From Halobacteriovorax marinus SJ (GTDB taxonomy: Bacteria > Bdellovibrionota > Bacteriovoracia > Bacteriovoracales > Bacteriovoracaceae): a stretch of DNA of 64,000 nucleotides. Below the pieces are notes generated by a model that was not told where the DNA came from, did not search any database, and saw nothing but the letters and a program-made list of their open reading frames with translations. The stretch's first letter is position 1; each line of letters opens with the position of its first letter. Where the stretch lies: contig NC_016620.1 of the NCBI RefSeq assembly GCF_000210915.2, positions 3,162,001 through 3,226,000 on the forward strand, given 5' to 3'. The translations under genes were made by a program, and so were the position numbers. Positions 6,445-13,437 of the stretch are shown here, piece after piece.

Positions 6445-7590
6445 ATGAATCCCACTATGACCAACTGGAAGTCCCCTCTCATTCTTGTACTCTCCTCCCT
6501 ACTTTTTATTTTGGCCCTTAGCAAAGAGAGGGCTAGCTATCGACCAATGAGACAGTCTGACTTCATTAGAGCTCACTTAGTTCGTATGCAGAATATTCAA
6601 GAGCGCGAGAGCTTTGCTCTAAGCAGGGCCTTTATTCTTGGAGATAAGAGAAGTTTAACTAAGGATTTAAAACAAAAGTTTTCAACACTTCATATAAATC
6701 ATCTCTTCACTCCAAGTGGGATACACTTCTCCTCCTTCTTTATACTCTTTCTTCCTTTATTAAAAAGACTAAGAAAGAAAGAGTTAAAAAAGACAGCACT
6801 TGCCATTGAATTGATACTTTGTCTTCTTCCTTTTGGGCTTAACCAACTCTACTCCTTAAAAAGGATTTCAATTTTAAGAATTTCAAATCTTATTTTCAAA
6901 AAGCTAAACTTGAAAATGAACATCTTTACTATTTTCGTTTTGAGTTTCCTCTTTGACTTTATATTTGGAACTTATGAACAAAGCCCAATGAGTTATGCTT
7001 TTAGCTTTCTCTTTCTCGGTAGCTTACTTGCCACCCCAAAACTATCTTCAATTGCACTGAGCTTCTTAAGTGCAAATCTCTTCATCACACTATTCTTTCC
7101 ATCGACTGTATCTCTTATAGGCTTTTTTCTAGGTTTTATTTTCACTTCATTTTTTTCAATAACATTTCCATTTCTCTTTCTACTTTATTGGACGAGTTCC
7201 CTTACAACTCTGGACTTAACCTATTTATTTTTTAATCTCTATCAATTTTTAGTTAATTCTTTTTACAAGCTCTCTATTCTTGGACCAAGCGTAGAGATTG
7301 ATCTCATTGGCTATTCCCTCTTACTCATTTTCACCATTGTTCGCAGAAAGAGATTTCTGATTTTTGCCATCATTCTGTCTTCTAATAGAGTCTACAATAT
7401 TCCAGCAGAGAGAGTTTCTAAGAATAATCTTAACCGTGAAGTAAGAATTAATAACTGGAAAATTAAAGGTCAAAAGGAAGTAGGACTTAACAAGGAGATG
7501 AGTTGTAGAAGAATTATTTTAACTAATGGGCATAGAATAACTTGTAGAAAGATCAAACCCAAGGAGGATCTTTTGGCACAATCCTCTTAA
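6445..7590 (+). CDS. ComEC/Rec2-like integral membrane protein, short form
   Basis: This is a 381-residue multi-pass protein. The segment at about 60-95 (ALSRAFILGDKRSLTKDL, then HLFTPSGIHFSSFFIL) matches the competence-domain signature of ComEC/Rec2, where HLLAISGLH is usual. Several hydrophobic helices follow up to about residue 305, then a basic soluble tail. The N-terminal OB-fold region and the C-terminal metallo-beta-lactamase-like nuclease domain of full ComEC are absent. Full ComEC forms the DNA uptake channel; whether this short form transports DNA is uncertain. Two close ATG codons occur and neither has a clear Shine-Dalgarno sequence. The 3' end overlaps the convergent histidine kinase gene by 38 bp. 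Confidence 0.75.
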   Translation: MNPTMTNWKSPLILVLSSLLFILALSKERASYRPMRQSDFIRAHLVRMQNIQERESFALSRAFILGDKRSLTKDLKQKFSTLHINHLFTPSGIHFSSFFILFLPLLKRLRKKELKKTALAIELILCLLPFGLNQLYSLKRISILRISNLIFKKLNLKMNIFTIFVLSFLFDFIFGTYEQSPMSYAFSFLFLGSLLATPKLSSIALSFLSANLFITLFFPSTVSLIGFFLGFIFTSFFSITFPFLFLLYWTSSLTTLDLTYLFFNLYQFLVNSFYKLSILGPSVEIDLIGYSLLLIFTIVRRKRFLIFAIILSSNRVYNIPAERVSKNNLNREVRINNWKIKGQKEVGLNKEMSCRRIILTNGHRITCRKIKPKEDLLAQSS

Positions 7591-9208
7591 TCCAACTCAT
7601 TTGCTCAAAAGAAGATTTTTCAAATCCTGTCGTCAGGTAAATTTCGCTTATTCCAAGTTCGAAATACTCTTTTGCCTTAATCTCCCCCTTTACATCATCA
7701 GAAAGGCTACTATCAATATAGAGAGTAAAATCACTTCCTAAACTATCTAGTGACTTTTCAAAATCAATACAAGAACTAAATGAATAAAACTCAACTGACT
7801 TTGACTTGGCGGCAGACTCCCAAGTTAGCCTAATAAGTTCATCATCATCAATTAAAACGTACTTCTTTTTTAGACGAGGGATACTTATAGAAAGCTGAGT
7901 TCCTTCGTCAACGACAGAGCTTACGAATATATTTCCACCACTCTTAGAGATAATCTCTCGAGCATAATGAAGACCAAGACCAGTTCCATTATCTTTACCA
8001 GAGGTATAGTTTTTTTCAAAAATCTTACTCATTTTATCTTCTGAGATACCCTGACCACTATCAGAAATATTTAAATAAAGAAATCGTTCATCAAAGTCTA
8101 ACTTAATGCTAACTTTACCTTTCGCCTCTTTGAGGGCCTCTACAGAGTTGTTAATAATATTAGAGAACACTCTTTTATACTCAGAGCTATCCCCGAGGAG
8201 AAGCTCAGTTTCAACAAAATTATTATGCTCGTATTCAATTTCAAGGTCAGTTAAACTCATAAACTCTAACTTTTTCTCTTCAATGATATCAACTAATAGA
8301 TCGTGCACTATAAACTTACTTAGTGACACTTCGCTTTCAGAGAATACCAACTCTCTAGTCTTTTGGTGCATATTGTTAGCAATACTTCTTATTCGCTCTA
8401 GGGCCGTCTTTATTAAATTAAAGCGACCACTCTCTAATCCTTTCAACTCATTTACTGCCATATCAAGGGCAGCCAATGGTGAACGTATATCATGGGCGAC
8501 TTGCCTAGCAACTTCAACAACGATCTTATTTTCTGCATTTTTAATTTGCTCGTCTTGATAACTCTTTAACTGAAAGAGAAGTTCATTTCGATTTTCAAAA
8601 AGGGACTTGAGTTCATCAATTTGAAGAATTTGATCACGATAGTAAATATCCTCTTTCGCCTGTTCAACATTTACAACACCAGAGAGAGACTTCGTTACTT
8701 TTTGCAATGGTCTTATCACAATTCTAATAAGATAATGATTTGTAACAAAAGTTAAAATTACAAAAGAAATCCCAAGAAAAACAAGTAGTGGGCCGGTTTC
8801 ACTAATGAATCCTTTTTTAACGTGGTAACCAAGAACGATCTCAGCAAGAACCTCTTTCTTTTGCTCGTCAAAGAAAAGAGTTTTTTTTAGTACTTCTCCA
8901 TTAGAGACCTCTGTCCCACTCTTACAAATGATAAATTCATCAGTTAAAATTTGAATATAATTAACAGAGTTTTGATCAAAATATTGATTACATTTTTTCT
9001 CCACGCTTGCATACTGACCCATAATGATGTCTTGTGAAACAAGTGAAGAAAAGAGATTTAAATTTTCATTATAGAGTTTTTTAATATTATCGTTATTAAT
9101 TCTTTCGAATGCGGTATAGAGATAAAAGCTCAACACAACAGAAAAAATGATATTCAATAATAAAAGAGGAATAGAAACGGCTCTAGAAAGCGAGAGATTA
9201 ATCTTCAT
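7553..9208 (-). CDS. hybrid sensor histidine kinase with C-terminal receiver-like domain
   Basis: This is a 551-residue inner-membrane kinase. Membrane helices lie at about 12-31 and 140-158, enclosing a periplasmic sensor of roughly 105 residues. The phosphoacceptor H239 lies in QVAHDIRSPLAAL. The ATPase boxes are NIINNSVEALKEA (N box), ISDSGQGIS (G1) and GTGLGLHYAREI (G2). The last 110 residues resemble a receiver: VLIDDDELIRLTW (acidic pocket), LYIDSSL (candidate phosphoacceptor Asp) and IVPKDPPW (conserved Lys). The ATG overlaps the end of the substrate-binding protein gene by 11 nt, making it the last gene of the five-gene operon. The partnership suggests it reads out ligand binding by that periplasmic protein, which is inference. 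No separate response regulator adjoins it. Confidence 0.92.
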   Translation of the reverse strand: MKINLSLSRAVSIPLLLLNIIFSVVLSFYLYTAFERINNDNIKKLYNENLNLFSSLVSQDIIMGQYASVEKKCNQYFDQNSVNYIQILTDEFIICKSGTEVSNGEVLKKTLFFDEQKKEVLAEIVLGYHVKKGFISETGPLLVFLGISFVILTFVTNHYLIRIVIRPLQKVTKSLSGVVNVEQAKEDIYYRDQILQIDELKSLFENRNELLFQLKSYQDEQIKNAENKIVVEVARQVAHDIRSPLAALDMAVNELKGLESGRFNLIKTALERIRSIANNMHQKTRELVFSESEVSLSKFIVHDLLVDIIEEKKLEFMSLTDLEIEYEHNNFVETELLLGDSSEYKRVFSNIINNSVEALKEAKGKVSIKLDFDERFLYLNISDSGQGISEDKMSKIFEKNYTSGKDNGTGLGLHYAREIISKSGGNIFVSSVVDEGTQLSISIPRLKKKYVLIDDDELIRLTWESAAKSKSVEFYSFSSCIDFEKSLDSLGSDFTLYIDSSLSDDVKGEIKAKEYFELGISEIYLTTGFEKSSFEQMSWIKRIVPKDPPWV

Positions 9209-10637
9209 TTACGATATCTCCCAGACTCGGAATAAATTTATAGCTGTAACGTGATGCCTTCTTCTTTAGCTTTGTCGCAATTATTGGATTAATCGAAAAA
9301 GATTGTATAATCCAGTCTTGTGACTCAAAATTTGTAAATGACTTAGAGTAACCCTTAAGCCTCTCTCTAATATTATTCGTATTGCGATATTCACTTAAAT
9401 CTTTCATAAATGATTCTGTTGAACAATTTGTAAATTTATACTGATTAGATTTTTCCAAAATACTTAAGAAACCATCAGGGTCAGGAAAAACTCCAACTGA
9501 TGCTCCTGAAATTAAGTGATACTCTCTACCTTGAAGGTTCTTAACATAATCCTTACCTGCCACAAGTGTTATCTCTGAATCTATTTTCTTTTCCAATAGG
9601 GTCTTTCTTAAGTTATCAATAATCTCTTTTGAGAAGTGTTCAACCCTAAGTTTTAAAATAATTTTCCTTTTAAAGGATACAGGTGTTGGATCAGAAACTT
9701 TATGGTCTTTAAAATAAGACCTAGGCATCACTCCATTTGGTAGAAATGTTTTTTGCCTCTTTAAGAGGTAGTTTTCTTTTGCATTATCAAAAACCCCTTG
9801 AATAATGAATGAGAGGTACCTTCTCTGTTTAGCTGATAGGTTATACTCCTTATTACAATTGAAGTAGAGATGGTTAATGGCCAATCCATTTAGCGAAAAT
9901 ATTGAATACTTTTCTTTATCAAGCCCTTCAATATCTTCCTCACTTGGACCAAGAACAACATCGTAGTTTGAGACTTGATCACTTTTAGAGATGATGAAGC
10001 TCTCTTCTTTTGAGATAATACTGAGTTTACCTTCTTTGAAATCAACCTTTGCGTCTCTTGCAAATTTCCCCTTCACGTTTCCACTTACGGAAAATTGATA
10101 ATCTCCTTCTTTCATTGTCTTGGGAATTATTCCAAATGTTGGCAATGACAAAACATAGAGAAGTGGCGAATACGCTTTTTTTAGGTTGAGGGAAATAGAG
10201 AGCGAGTTATTTACTTTTATTAACTCATCGAAATTTATTTTTTTAGATTCATTGTCACGAACTCCGAAGGCATTTAAGAGATAACTCTTAATGGAACTCT
10301 TATTAGACTTATGAAAGTATCTCTTCAGGGAGTATTCTATATCCCAAGCTGTAATTTGATAACCTTGATAGAAAACGTTCTTCTTTAATTCAAATGTATA
10401 TTTTTGTCCGTCTTTGGAAACACTCCATCTCTTTGCAATATCTCCGCGCAGAAGACCTTTATTATCTATAGAAACAAGGTTTCTAAAAAGGTATTTGGAA
10501 ATAAAATAATTATAGTAATGCCATTGTTTAATCGGAAGAACACTCTTTGGCATTATTGGCATAGAGATTTGATAACTCTTTATTGCAAAAGAGCTGAAGC
10601 TCAAAAACAATAGGATAACTGCGAACTTAATTTTCAA
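9198..10637 (-). CDS. family-5 extracellular solute (peptide)-binding protein
   Basis: This is a 479-residue periplasmic protein with the signal peptide MKIKFAVILLFLSFSSFA. The N-terminal lobe has the family-5 pattern LVSIDNKGLLRGDIAKRWSV, then TFELKKNVFYQG and ITAWDIEYSLKRYF, as in OppA/DppA-type proteins. The C-terminal DPDGFLSILE fits the family too. The start chosen is a TTG at 10637 with AGGGG 5 nt upstream and the signal peptide right after it. It overlaps the HExxH gene stop. No ABC permease or ATPase genes are nearby, so uptake is unlikely to be its role here. Directly downstream is a histidine kinase with a periplasmic domain, so it may present a peptide ligand to that sensor (inference). 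Confidence 0.85.
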   Translation of the reverse strand: MKIKFAVILLFLSFSSFAIKSYQISMPIMPKSVLPIKQWHYYNYFISKYLFRNLVSIDNKGLLRGDIAKRWSVSKDGQKYTFELKKNVFYQGYQITAWDIEYSLKRYFHKSNKSSIKSYLLNAFGVRDNESKKINFDELIKVNNSLSISLNLKKAYSPLLYVLSLPTFGIIPKTMKEGDYQFSVSGNVKGKFARDAKVDFKEGKLSIISKEESFIISKSDQVSNYDVVLGPSEEDIEGLDKEKYSIFSLNGLAINHLYFNCNKEYNLSAKQRRYLSFIIQGVFDNAKENYLLKRQKTFLPNGVMPRSYFKDHKVSDPTPVSFKRKIILKLRVEHFSKEIIDNLRKTLLEKKIDSEITLVAGKDYVKNLQGREYHLISGASVGVFPDPDGFLSILEKSNQYKFTNCSTESFMKDLSEYRNTNNIRERLKGYSKSFTNFESQDWIIQSFSINPIIATKLKKKASRYSYKFIPSLGDIVNED

Positions 10638-11412
10638 GAGCACCCCTATAGTTATAAACAAGTTTCATTCCAAATTCTGTTAACTGAGATCGATCAAAAG
10701 TTTCAATAGTTTGTCTCAAAAGCTCTCTTTCATTCTCTAATTTATACTTAAACTTATCCTGATGCATAATAAGTCTAAACATGACATGTGCGGAATGTAG
10801 TCTTCCAATTGGAGGTCTCTCCTTTCTCTGAAAAGGTGCGTATCTCAGCTCTTCATCACTTCCCTCAAGAACCAGACGGTCTTCAAGGTTTAGAAGAAAT
10901 AATTCTTGGTGAGCAATTTCATGGACAATAGATTTAATAACATCTTCTTTATTTTCACATTCACTAAAATTTAAATAAAGACAAAATAGTGAATGAGGAT
11001 GTGACGCTCCTCTAAAATTTGGCGCAGAGACAAGACAAAACCTTAAATGCTTATTTAGGTCAAAACCCAAATCATCCATCGCAGAGATTTCGTTGATAAT
11101 TTCATCAAGATTAAATCTAGAAGCATCTCCACGAAATGATGTCAGAGATTCGCTTACTATATTAATTCTTCTATTCCAAAATGCTTCAAACTCTGTTGAT
11201 ACGTCTAAATTGACAACCCTTTTTTTGTAGAAGTCATTGATGCCAACTATTTCTTCAAAACTTAAGTCTCCATAATAAAGTAGAGATAAATAACACAATG
11301 GAGCAGAGGCCAAAAAGTCCAAGTTAAACTTATCCATTAAGGCCTTGGCGTAAGTTGCTCTTACTTTTTCAAATTTATTTTTAAATATCCAAGAGTCTAA
11401 AGCACCACTCAC
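10627..11412 (-). CDS. HExxH-motif enzyme resembling RiPP peptide beta-hydroxylases
   Basis: This is a 261-residue soluble protein. HEIAH at 164-168 is the metal-binding motif. It is followed by NLEDRLV, then YAPFQRKERPPIG, then RLHSAHVMFRL at about 204-214. This order (HExxH, a short spacer, an RP-containing loop, LH-xx-V-[MF]) is what I know from HExxH proteins found beside ribosomal peptide precursors (TIGR04267 type), some shown to be Fe(II)/2-oxoglutarate-dependent peptide beta-hydroxylases. There is no signal peptide, so it acts in the cytoplasm. The GTG start overlaps the SDR stop (GTGA) and its own end overlaps the binding-protein gene. The alternative is an ordinary zinc metalloprotease, but the C-terminal signature argues against it. 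The exported repeat protein is the obvious candidate substrate (inference). Confidence 0.7.
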   Translation of the reverse strand: MSGALDSWIFKNKFEKVRATYAKALMDKFNLDFLASAPLCYLSLLYYGDLSFEEIVGINDFYKKRVVNLDVSTEFEAFWNRRINIVSESLTSFRGDASRFNLDEIINEISAMDDLGFDLNKHLRFCLVSAPNFRGASHPHSLFCLYLNFSECENKEDVIKSIVHEIAHQELFLLNLEDRLVLEGSDEELRYAPFQRKERPPIGRLHSAHVMFRLIMHQDKFKYKLENERELLRQTIETFDRSQLTEFGMKLVYNYRGALEN

Positions 11413-12413
11413 TTAACTTTTCCTAGAGTTTTAATCAAGGCCCTTTCTTTTTCTCTGAATGAAAATGCGTAACTCTCTTCCCTAAGTTGTAAATATTCGT
11501 CATTAAGGTCTTTGATCCAATCAACTACTGGAGTAATAGTCTGCTGACTCTCTACTTCTTTAAGTAAAGTAAGGTCGAGTTCATACTTCCCCCACTTACC
11601 AAATGGAGGTGGAGTTATTTCATTTTCAACAAACTTCTCTTTTCCAACATTAAATATAGGTGTTTCGAAGTTGTTACACTTATCAATCATGGAGATCAAT
11701 TTCTTATTCGTGAATATTTCATCTTGAGCATAATTTACAATTAGATTTTCTCTGTTATTTGAGTTTTTTATCAGATCAAAATAAAATCTTGCCATATTGG
11801 TGGAGTAAACAAGGTGATAGGTATTATGACCTTCATCCGGAAGGAGAACACCTTCTTTATCGTGAACTCTCTCTAAGAAATAATTTGTTCTCTTAATCGG
11901 ATCTCTCTTACCTAAAATAACATTAGGTCTAATAATCACTTTCTGAGAAAAATTTGAGTCAAGGAGAAGTCTTTCACAATCGGCCTTTCCTTGAATGTAG
12001 TCCCACTCCCTATCTTGAAAGAGAGAGTTTCTTTCATACTGATGATAAACATCAACATCACTTTCTTTGAAGTTATTTTCTTTTTGGTTACGAATAAGGT
12101 GATAAACAGCTGATGAGCTCGTGAGGAGATATTTAATCTCATTTCTACCTGATAGTGCCTCTAGCAAATTACTTATTATTGATTTATTCACTGAGATATT
12201 ATCGACGACTATTTCAAATTGATAATCTGCAAGTTGATCTAAATCTTCTCGCTTGGTAACATCGCCTTTGAGAGTAAGAAGTTGATCGCTTTCTATACCT
12301 GGAACATTACCACTTCGATTGAAAGTCACGACCTTAGTACCAGAACTTAAAAGCATCTCCACTAACTCTCTACCTACAAATGAATTTCCTCCAAATACAA
12401 GAACTGTCGACAT
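11409..12413 (-). CDS. extended SDR, NAD-dependent epimerase/dehydratase-like
   Basis: This is a 334-residue Rossmann-fold protein. VLVFGGNSFVGRELVEML at the N-terminus is the GxxGxxG nucleotide-binding motif. LTSSSAVY supplies the Ser/Thr site and WDYIQGKADCERLL holds the YxxxK catalytic pair. IIRPNVILGKRD is typical of NAD-dependent epimerases and dehydratases. The ATG at 12413 has GGAGG 4 nt upstream and lies 14 nt after the repeat-protein stop. The 3' end overlaps the HExxH gene by 4 nt. Most relatives act on nucleotide sugars, but none of the usual sugar-pathway genes are here. Its substrate could be a residue or sugar on the repeat protein. That is speculation from position. Confidence 0.85.
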   Translation of the reverse strand: MSTVLVFGGNSFVGRELVEMLLSSGTKVVTFNRSGNVPGIESDQLLTLKGDVTKREDLDQLADYQFEIVVDNISVNKSIISNLLEALSGRNEIKYLLTSSSAVYHLIRNQKENNFKESDVDVYHQYERNSLFQDREWDYIQGKADCERLLLDSNFSQKVIIRPNVILGKRDPIKRTNYFLERVHDKEGVLLPDEGHNTYHLVYSTNMARFYFDLIKNSNNRENLIVNYAQDEIFTNKKLISMIDKCNNFETPIFNVGKEKFVENEITPPPFGKWGKYELDLTLLKEVESQQTITPVVDWIKDLNDEYLQLREESYAFSFREKERALIKTLGKVK

Positions 12414-12427
12414 TAACCCTCCGAGCA

Positions 12428-13315
12428 CTAAGGAAAGAAAATATCAGAACCAAAGCTAGCTGAAGTCCTTCTGCCACCAGTTAAGATCTCTACTCTTGCT
12501 TCAGAGAACCCTGCATCTCTTAGTCTCTCTAAAACAGACTCATTGAAACTGAAGTCTCCTGATAAGATTTCTACTCTAGACTCCGAAATATTATTATTTC
12601 TAAATACATCTAGCTCAAAATCACTCAATCCATTCTGCACTCTAGCGTCGTTAATAAGAATCTCAACTCTTGACTCGGCCATACCCGCATCTCTTAGAAG
12701 GTCAATATTTAAACTTCTACCACTATCGACTAATATCTCAATACGAGATTCTGAAAGCATTTCAGCTCTTAAAAGGTCCAGCCTAATATTGTCTCTAGAA
12801 TTAATTAATATCTCAACTCTAGATTCTGAAAAGCCTGCCTCACTTAAGTTTTGTAAATTTATATTTCTCTGATCTCCCGAGAGAATCTCCACTCTTGATT
12901 CTGAAAAAAGAGACTCATTCATAACATCAAGGCTTACGTCCTCTACTTTTTCAGAGGTTAGGATCTCAATCTTTGCAGCTTGAAACTCTTTAATGAAATA
13001 AACTGCAGTATTGAGCTCTTGGTCTTTTATATCAATGATGCTTTCTAAACTCTTATGATCTTTTTCGCTTAAGTTCAGTGCATTTTCTTTGAGGAGATTA
13101 TAAATATGAGGCCTTAGAGTGAAGAAGCTCTTATCATATTGCTTTGCTAGCTTTAGAGCTATAATGTCTGCCTTAAACCTTAAAAGCTCATCTTTAGCGG
13201 CTTCGCTTAAGTTAGAATTTAATTGAAATTGTCCCAGGGCTGATTCAATTTCTTGAGCTAAAACTCCCGATGGAACACTTAATAAAAGTGCTACTGACAA
13301 TAATTCTTTTTTCAT
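12428..13315 (-). CDS. exported protein with seven 25-residue repeats, possible modified-peptide precursor
   Basis: This is a 295-residue protein. A Sec signal peptide (MKKELLSVALLLSVPSGVLA) leads a helical region to about 110. Repeats follow, built on F-S-E-S-R-V-E-I-L and then an acidic/amide stretch ending L-R-D-A-G. Clear copies start at 137, 162, 187, 212, 243 and 270, and a degenerate one at about 111 (KIEIL). The core octapeptide is nearly invariant while the linkers vary. I know no named family for it. AGAGGT lies 4 nt before the ATG. It is first in the operon that carries the SDR and the HExxH enzyme, so it could be their substrate with each repeat as a core. A plain structural solenoid is the alternative. 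Confidence 0.7.
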   Translation of the reverse strand: MKKELLSVALLLSVPSGVLAQEIESALGQFQLNSNLSEAAKDELLRFKADIIALKLAKQYDKSFFTLRPHIYNLLKENALNLSEKDHKSLESIIDIKDQELNTAVYFIKEFQAAKIEILTSEKVEDVSLDVMNESLFSESRVEILSGDQRNINLQNLSEAGFSESRVEILINSRDNIRLDLLRAEMLSESRIEILVDSGRSLNIDLLRDAGMAESRVEILINDARVQNGLSDFELDVFRNNNISESRVEILSGDFSFNESVLERLRDAGFSEARVEILTGGRRTSASFGSDIFFP

Positions 13316-13437
13316 AACGACCTCTTGAGTACAAAAATCTTTGTATTCATATACTTATAAATTTGTGTTTTTAAAAGAGGATTGAAAAAATTCTATTTAA
13401 TACACAGGTAGTAAGATACTGTAATCACATACACACC

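Follow-up and report, generated by a model that had tools for sequence, protein, structure and literature searches.

An operon joining an exported repeat protein to a HExxH enzyme and a putative sensor

Why would a bacterium encode an exported protein that repeats one short motif in the same operon as a HExxH enzyme, a solute-binding protein and a histidine kinase? The question is raised by a locus of Halobacteriovorax marinus SJ, a member of the Bdellovibrionota, a phylum whose members prey on other bacteria. The locus occupies positions 7553-13315 of the window analyzed here, a stretch of 64,000 nucleotides of contig NC_016620.1 (positions 3,162,001 to 3,226,000). A first-pass annotation, made from the sequence alone, had described five minus-strand genes there and read them as a repeat-peptide system. 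The listing of open reading frames (ORFs) contains these five in the same order and at the same coordinates, and the operon is real: taking the longest ORFs, the gene of the repeat protein and that of a short-chain dehydrogenase/reductase (SDR) overlap by 1 nt, the SDR and HExxH genes by 4 nt, the HExxH and binding protein genes by at most 35 nt (a figure that shrinks with an inner start codon), and the binding protein and kinase genes by 11 nt. Our answer, to which we assign a probability of roughly one half, is that the cassette is a modified-peptide signalling system, whose exported product would be modified by the enzyme and sensed by the binding protein and the kinase.

The presumed precursor or substrate of the enzyme is a protein of 295 residues (12428-13315, on the minus strand like all the features given below), whose N-terminus, judged by a crude rule, looks like a Sec signal peptide. 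Seven SESRVEIL-type repeats had been claimed in it; six are clear [AS]R[VI]EIL copies, but the remaining one, the first in the protein, is degenerate (QAAKIEIL, within FQAAKIEIL at 12959-12985). The six copies read FSESRVEIL (12881-12907), FSESRVEIL (12806-12832), LSESRIEIL (12731-12757), MAESRVEIL (12656-12682), ISESRVEIL (12563-12589) and FSEARVEIL (12482-12508), and the spacing of the repeats is 25-31 residues. When the protein was shuffled, 4,998 of 5,000 trials gave no copy at all, and the maximum was one. No tandem repeat was found at the DNA level in this gene with Tandem Repeats Finder, and the copies differ in synonymous codons, which argues that the repeats are not the product of a recent DNA duplication. 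The only clear homolog is encoded by a sister genome, G045, and according to the pairwise alignment it lacks one repeat unit in the region of motif 5; a search of the phylum added only two weak matches (E 0.002 and 0.01). Between the window and G045, motif columns are 87% identical and linkers 54% (p = 3.5e-5), the motif being the best-conserved part of the protein, and the codon changes within the motifs comprise 28 synonymous and 7 nonsynonymous ones. Together, these figures indicate that the repeat motif is under selection at the level of the protein. An AlphaFold2 model of the repeat protein was uninformative, with a predicted local distance difference test (pLDDT) score of 43. Pfam matches to UBA, Sigma54_CBD and HlyD were weak, fell below the cutoff and were rejected. 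PADLOC gave only weak matches (HEC-02B and Cas11e, E about 1e-3 to 1e-4), which were taken as chance.

The HExxH protein falls with the alpha-ketoglutarate HExxH enzymes by sequence and predicted fold

The central gene (10627-11412) encodes a predicted alpha-ketoglutarate HExxH-type peptide hydroxylase. In the hidden Markov model (HMM) searches its product scored 51.5 bits against the NCBIfam model TIGR04267, whose cutoff is 40, and matched mod_HExxH at 1.2e-13. The only convincing sequence match in the PDB was 8s5f, the HExxH oxygenase domain of ChlB (phmmer 2.8e-5), and the alignment runs through both HE..HQ and RPPxGxLH, which in our protein are HEIAHQ (residues 164-169) and RPPIGRLH (residues 199-206). 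Residues H164, E165, H168, R199, P200 and H206 are invariant in an alignment of 24 relatives. The AlphaFold2 model of the protein has a pLDDT of 74 overall and mostly 87-96 over the catalytic half, and its fold matches 8s5f (Foldseek E 1.9e-6; VIA Z 18.8 over 251 residues, 3.5 Å) and SjiH (22ob, Z 16.7), the best other row reaching a Z of 5.5. The membership of a TIGR04267-like family and the oxygenase-type structure that had been anticipated for this protein are thus borne out by the HMM score and by the modelled fold, and the concern that it might instead belong to a metalloprotease family finds no support in either of them or in the 8s5f match. No peptidase family was matched in Pfam; selecase and M32 chains appeared only as weak rows of the fold comparison, where absence from a ranked list is no exclusion, and the precedent of PflC (see below) makes hydrolysis a possibility. 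Relatives from other loci score similarly against TIGR04267, with 51-54.5 bits for L043, L129 and L121 and 39.7 bits, just below the cutoff, for L010.

The same genome carries a second, longer TIGR04267 protein outside the window (475 residues, 61.3 bits; L054:6674-8101, that is, C1:3356673-3358100). It has relatives in many genomes of the Bacteriovoracaceae, no binding protein or kinase was recognized alongside it, and it perhaps serves a separate core function of the family. The enzyme query had no match in plasmids and phages, and viral contigs held one distant tandem pair; the clade-1 (see below) and repeat queries found nothing in the viral contigs. The pair lies on an IMG/VR contig (L105:4075-5835) and consists of two HExxH-family genes, the first with a degraded HExxH motif, possibly a pseudoenzyme with its enzyme.

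Related cassettes are patchily distributed in the Bdellovibrionota

The immediate flanks of the operon comprise nadB, nadC, a ComEC-like gene, an E1 gene and the gene of an outer-membrane protein. Within the genus, G045 carries the full five-gene operon in the same chromosomal place; in G044 and G046 the ComEC-like and E1 genes are directly adjacent to each other and all five genes are absent, and in G043 a 1,747-residue protein and a second gene take the place of the operon. Being all present or all absent among the congeners, the five genes behave as a single unit that is acquired or lost at a variable site, and the co-occurrence of repeat protein and enzyme that the first-pass annotation had called for holds, both being present in one congener and missing from the other three. 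In the replaced segment of G043 (L161:5078-11514), the 1,747-residue protein has no Pfam match and its neighbor has a weak match to GDSL lipases.

The repeat protein is confined to 2 of 129 genomes of the family, one for each of two species. The enzyme is not: profile searches of 369 genomes of Bdellovibrionota yielded about 35 related HExxH loci. In most of them the HExxH enzyme goes with a solute-binding protein of family 5, a histidine kinase and a small protein exported by Sec, which we call the partner; many add an NtrC-type sigma-54 activator. This cassette is conserved across many genera, which belong to several families. Three gene orders recur: NtrC, exported protein, binding protein, HExxH enzyme and kinase; exported protein, HExxH enzyme, binding protein and kinase, with or without a final NtrC gene; and NtrC, exported protein, HExxH enzyme, binding protein and kinase (L121, L126 and L127). 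By the crude signal rule, a small exported gene lies near the HExxH gene in most cassettes; a still cruder automatic count, in which ORFs hidden behind antisense frames are overlooked, found an exported neighbor for 16 of 24 HExxH genes and for 2 of 11 background genes (p = 0.01). The proposal of an exported precursor with a sensor of its own, drawn initially from a single operon, has therefore gained strength from the recurrence of the whole set across the phylum. What has to be revised is the repeat-peptide form of it: exported partner and enzyme are indeed linked, but the multi-repeat protein is a rare derivative, known from two genomes, and the usual exported partner is small and has just one short motif, in most cases at its C-terminus. 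Nor is the SDR a general part of the cassette, as it occurs in the window and G045 only among the cassettes found.

Two further arrangements were seen in passing. A transporter-like membrane protein is encoded between the HExxH enzyme and the kinase in L053:2233-7393 and L051:243-3408 (MFS_1 8.9e-07 in L053). In G094 (L009:6060-6456), a pair of HExxH and binding protein genes follows what by eye resembles a tRNA-Met gene, a possible insertion point, with no exported ORF between.

The partners are often 90-160 residues long, with N-terminal regions that are alike within subgroups. These conserved regions exceed what a bare leader would need, and no dedicated protease was recognized in the cassettes. 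Both observations would suit a different role, in which the exported protein acts in the periplasm together with the binding protein and kinase. Its hydroxylation, dependent on oxygen, iron and 2-oxoglutarate, would report the metabolic state, and the cassette would sense oxygen or nutrition rather than a secreted peptide; the repeat copies could then provide multivalent binding. We regard this as possible but rather unlikely, considering that outside the motifs the partners diverge almost wholly between subgroups, like precursors of ribosomally synthesized and post-translationally modified peptides (RiPPs), and that L129 pairs a repeat peptide with the enzyme and has no sensor. In this locus (L129:8752-9864), precursor and enzyme genes are separated by a terminator-like hairpin and no sensor genes were recognized; the peptide, of 70 residues, contains two near-identical FGESRVNGVIIDI (FGESRV) repeats and is encoded directly upstream of a clade-1 enzyme gene, which makes L129 an ideal minimal system for enzymology.

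A short arginine motif accompanies one clade of the enzymes

The tree of the enzymes has two main groups, clade 1 and clade 2, and the motifs of the partners follow them. The pattern [AS]R-x-[DEN] is present in 9 of 12 partners of clade 1 and in none of the 18 of clade 2 (p = 1.5e-5), while SF occurs within the last 12 residues of 12 of the 18 clade-2 partners as compared to 30 of 676 background sequences (p = 7e-12), both p-values being guides, given the relatedness of the sequences and the fact that some of the choice of patterns followed inspection. The tails of the clade-1 partners include ARMDFVRQ (L121, L126 and L127), ARADIVQQ (L119 and L124) and SRVDERQR (L130), so that these six have RxD near the C-terminus; the window has R-x-E, internally, in the repeats. 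A pattern taken from the literature only, [AP]R[MVT]D within the last 13 residues, was found in 2 of 686 ORFs, and both are partners. The clade-1 pattern is also carried by the two-repeat peptide of L129 and by the repeats of the window and G045, and the SESRVEIL repeats of the window look like this motif, multiplied.

Such motifs are known targets of this enzyme family. PflC and PosC hydroxylate Gln and cleave at a C-terminal ARMD (PMC12636437), PesO hydroxylates the Pro that precedes R(V/T)DN (PMC13060819), and BipH hydroxylates a C-terminal ortho-Tyr, the residue that precedes Arg-Ser in biphenomycin C (PMC12707348). In addition, the small proteins linked to zincins in actinobacteria fall into classes with a conserved C-terminal RxD or FxSxx (PMC7159879). 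What PflC cleaves at ARMD is the backbone, and it also shows hydrolytic activity without its leader (PMC12636437); no other protease was recognized in the cassette. The HExxH protein might accordingly be regarded as mainly a protease, or an oxidative peptide cutter, that acts at each [SA]R motif. We find this quite unlikely, as fold and motif are those of the oxygenase family and not of classical metalloproteases, and we favor hydroxylation because cleavage at every motif would part the cores from the sole Sec signal and strand them in the cytoplasm.

The recurrence of the motif bears as well on the idea that the repeats form a structural solenoid and that the enzyme is an incidental neighbor. 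The spacing fits helical or strand repeats, and the low-confidence model hints at short regular elements. Considering that the five genes come or go as one block in the genus, and that [AS]R-x-[DEN] recurs beside clade-1 enzymes in several lineages, we judge a mere solenoid to be very improbable.

Sensor genes, sigma-54 sites and an upstream element

The families assigned beforehand to two of the remaining genes were confirmed: the SDR gene (11409-12428) encodes an extended SDR of the NAD-dependent epimerase/dehydratase family (Pfam Epimerase 8e-13), and the next but one (9198-10661, starting at TTG or at an inner codon) a periplasmic family-5 solute-binding protein of the peptide/nickel type (SBP_bac_5 2e-16). 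The last gene (7553-9208) encodes a membrane histidine kinase. It had been called a hybrid kinase, and HATPase_c (2.2e-19) and HisKA were indeed found, but the receiver-like C-terminal part is below Pfam detection, and "hybrid" stands by way of conserved residues and of homology to L010, whose own Response_reg match is weak (E 0.001).

Among NCBIfam models the binding protein matches NikA best (1.9e-12), the staphylopine-binding CntA matches as well, and the PDB matches include peptide- and nickel-binding proteins. It could be argued from this that the product is a metal-binding peptide, that its hydroxylated acidic residues chelate a metal, and that the binding protein takes up the complex while the kinase reports metal status. 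Nevertheless, the family includes many peptide binders, neither an ABC transporter nor a TonB receptor is encoded among the five genes of the window or their immediate neighbors, and the SF motifs of clade 2 would be poor metal ligands, which makes a metal-related role improbable in our eyes.

The NtrC protein of the cassettes is a true sigma-54 activator (Pfam Sigma54_activat 1.3e-65). A perfect TGGCAC-N5-TTGC site is present at 7 of 26 operon starts and at 1 of 288 other ORFs, and sites with at least 8 of 10 matches at 14 of 26 and 20 of 288, respectively, using the same 300-bp window. The G045 copy, like that of our window, has neither NtrC nor a sigma-54 site, and sigma-70-like sites upstream of the window operon are no commoner than in shuffled sequences. 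Alignment of the two genomes revealed instead a shared element of 22 bp ahead of the repeat gene; its 21-base core, TAAATAGAATTTTTTCAATCC (13379-13399), occurs only once in the genome even if three mismatches are allowed. This core is a possible promoter or operator.

The dominance of regulatory genes in the cassette also bears on another proposal, that the cassette exports a peptide with antibacterial or anti-prey action, whose accumulation the sensor gauges. A cluster of Pseudomonas Os17 that encodes a HExxH enzyme affects antibiotic activity (PMC7726476), and the host phylum has many predators. To these points we oppose, besides the regulatory genes, that no immunity gene or dedicated exporter was recognized and that the distribution is patchy, most relatives having no cassette; we give the proposal little credence.

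A possible peptide signal and its relation to known systems

How would a modified-peptide signalling system of this kind work? Before export, the enzyme, which has no signal peptide and looks cytosolic, would bind the unfolded precursor at [SA]-R-[VI]-E and oxidize the residue just before the Arg, or one beside it; related enzymes act in this way at A-R-M-D and P-R-(V/T)-D. The modified protein would leave through Sec, proteases would free the peptides, and the binding protein would capture them and, once loaded, switch the kinase. In most relatives the NtrC protein, activated by the kinase, would then turn on its own operon, a positive feedback. In the lineage of the window the motif would have been multiplied, the SDR added and the regulator lost. 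The SDR might oxidize or reduce the modified residue in a second modification, a role that is speculation because only two species have the gene among the loci examined.

Several observations weigh against this interpretation. An HMM of clade-1 C-termini finds no significant match in the window repeats, so the homology between repeats and single-copy motifs is suggested by the pattern and not by the profile; the motif scores of single proteins are weak, and the clade-1 partners of L043, L114 and L117 lack the Arg. The targets of the published enzymes are Pro, Ala, Gln, Asp, His and Phe, not Ser. The substrate has a signal peptide and the enzyme has none, which demands that modification precede export. 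No partner gene was found in L009 (at a contig end), L120, L132 or L128, and no cognate response regulator or sigma-54 site in the window operon. Lastly, modification, processing and sensing, that is, the chemistry and the binding of the cassette, are steps that we infer from the sequences.

In comparison with the known enzymes of TIGR04267 / IPR026337 (ChlB-HExxH 8s5f, PflC/PosC, PesO and BipH), the HMM, catalytic motifs and fold are alike, as is the small adjacent precursor with an [ASP]-R-x-[DE]-type motif. The precursor of the window differs in being Sec-exported, multi-copy and tied to a binding protein and a kinase, and no MNIO, radical SAM or ABC exporter gene is among the window genes. 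The cassette shares with RiPP systems in general a precursor gene beside the modifying enzyme and a conserved core motif in a divergent protein. The C-terminal ARMD target of the Pseudomonas pfl/pos cluster also recurs near the C-terminus of the L121, L126 and L127 partners; that cluster, unlike the cassette, has a nitrile-hydratase-type leader, an MNIO-nitroreductase and no dedicated sensor, and a Sec signal is unmentioned for it (PMC12636437). The actinobacterial FxSxx-COOH/RxD peptide-processing systems resemble the cassettes in combining a zincin-like enzyme with a fast-diverging small protein that ends in a short motif, and in having an RxD class and an F-containing class (PMC7159879). 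Those go with VMAP/AP-ATPase conflict systems and, in the FxSxx type, with a radical SAM enzyme, whereas in the cassettes the enzyme is accompanied by a periplasmic sensor and, among the relatives, by a sigma-54 activator; no VMAP/AP-ATPase or radical SAM gene was found among the five window genes (Pfam) or their immediate flanks.

LuxP-LuxQ-LuxO quorum sensing relies on a periplasmic binding protein, a kinase with a receiver part and an NtrC-type sigma-54 activator, a layout much like that of the relatives with a regulator. The binding protein of the cassette, as a member of SBP_bac_5, is not of the LuxP type: it is a family-5 protein of the peptide/nickel type, with a presumed ribosomal ligand, in an operon that seems to control itself and, in the window, has no regulator.

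The enzyme family, the RxD/FxSxx peptides and the relays of binding protein, kinase and sigma-54 factor are each known already. Neither the self-sensing combination nor a multi-copy, Sec-exported substrate for the HExxH family was found in the literature searched, and there is a fair chance that the cassette represents a new signalling class. More tentatively, at somewhat less than even odds, we propose a new Gram-negative family of cell-cell or self-sensing signals, in which ribosomal peptides are exported by Sec, oxidized by a HExxH enzyme and perceived by a binding protein and kinase with sigma-54 feedback, patchily distributed in Bdellovibrionota; the window would hold a multi-core version with about six near-identical signals per protein.

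Alpha-ketoglutarate HExxH enzymes are a family of RiPP enzymes that was recognized only recently, whose reactions have so far been unpredictable. The loci gathered here suggest a simple rule, that they act next to the Arg in [ASP]-R-x-[DE], which can be checked family-wide. Moreover, the phylum-wide set links these enzymes with a sensor and a regulator of their own, and such a physiological role is undescribed in the literature searched, where no quorum-sensing peptide of predators turned up either. If our interpretation is true, this would be a new kind of bacterial peptide signal, and a self-sensing peptide could offer a lever on the switch of predators between attack, growth and prey-independent life.

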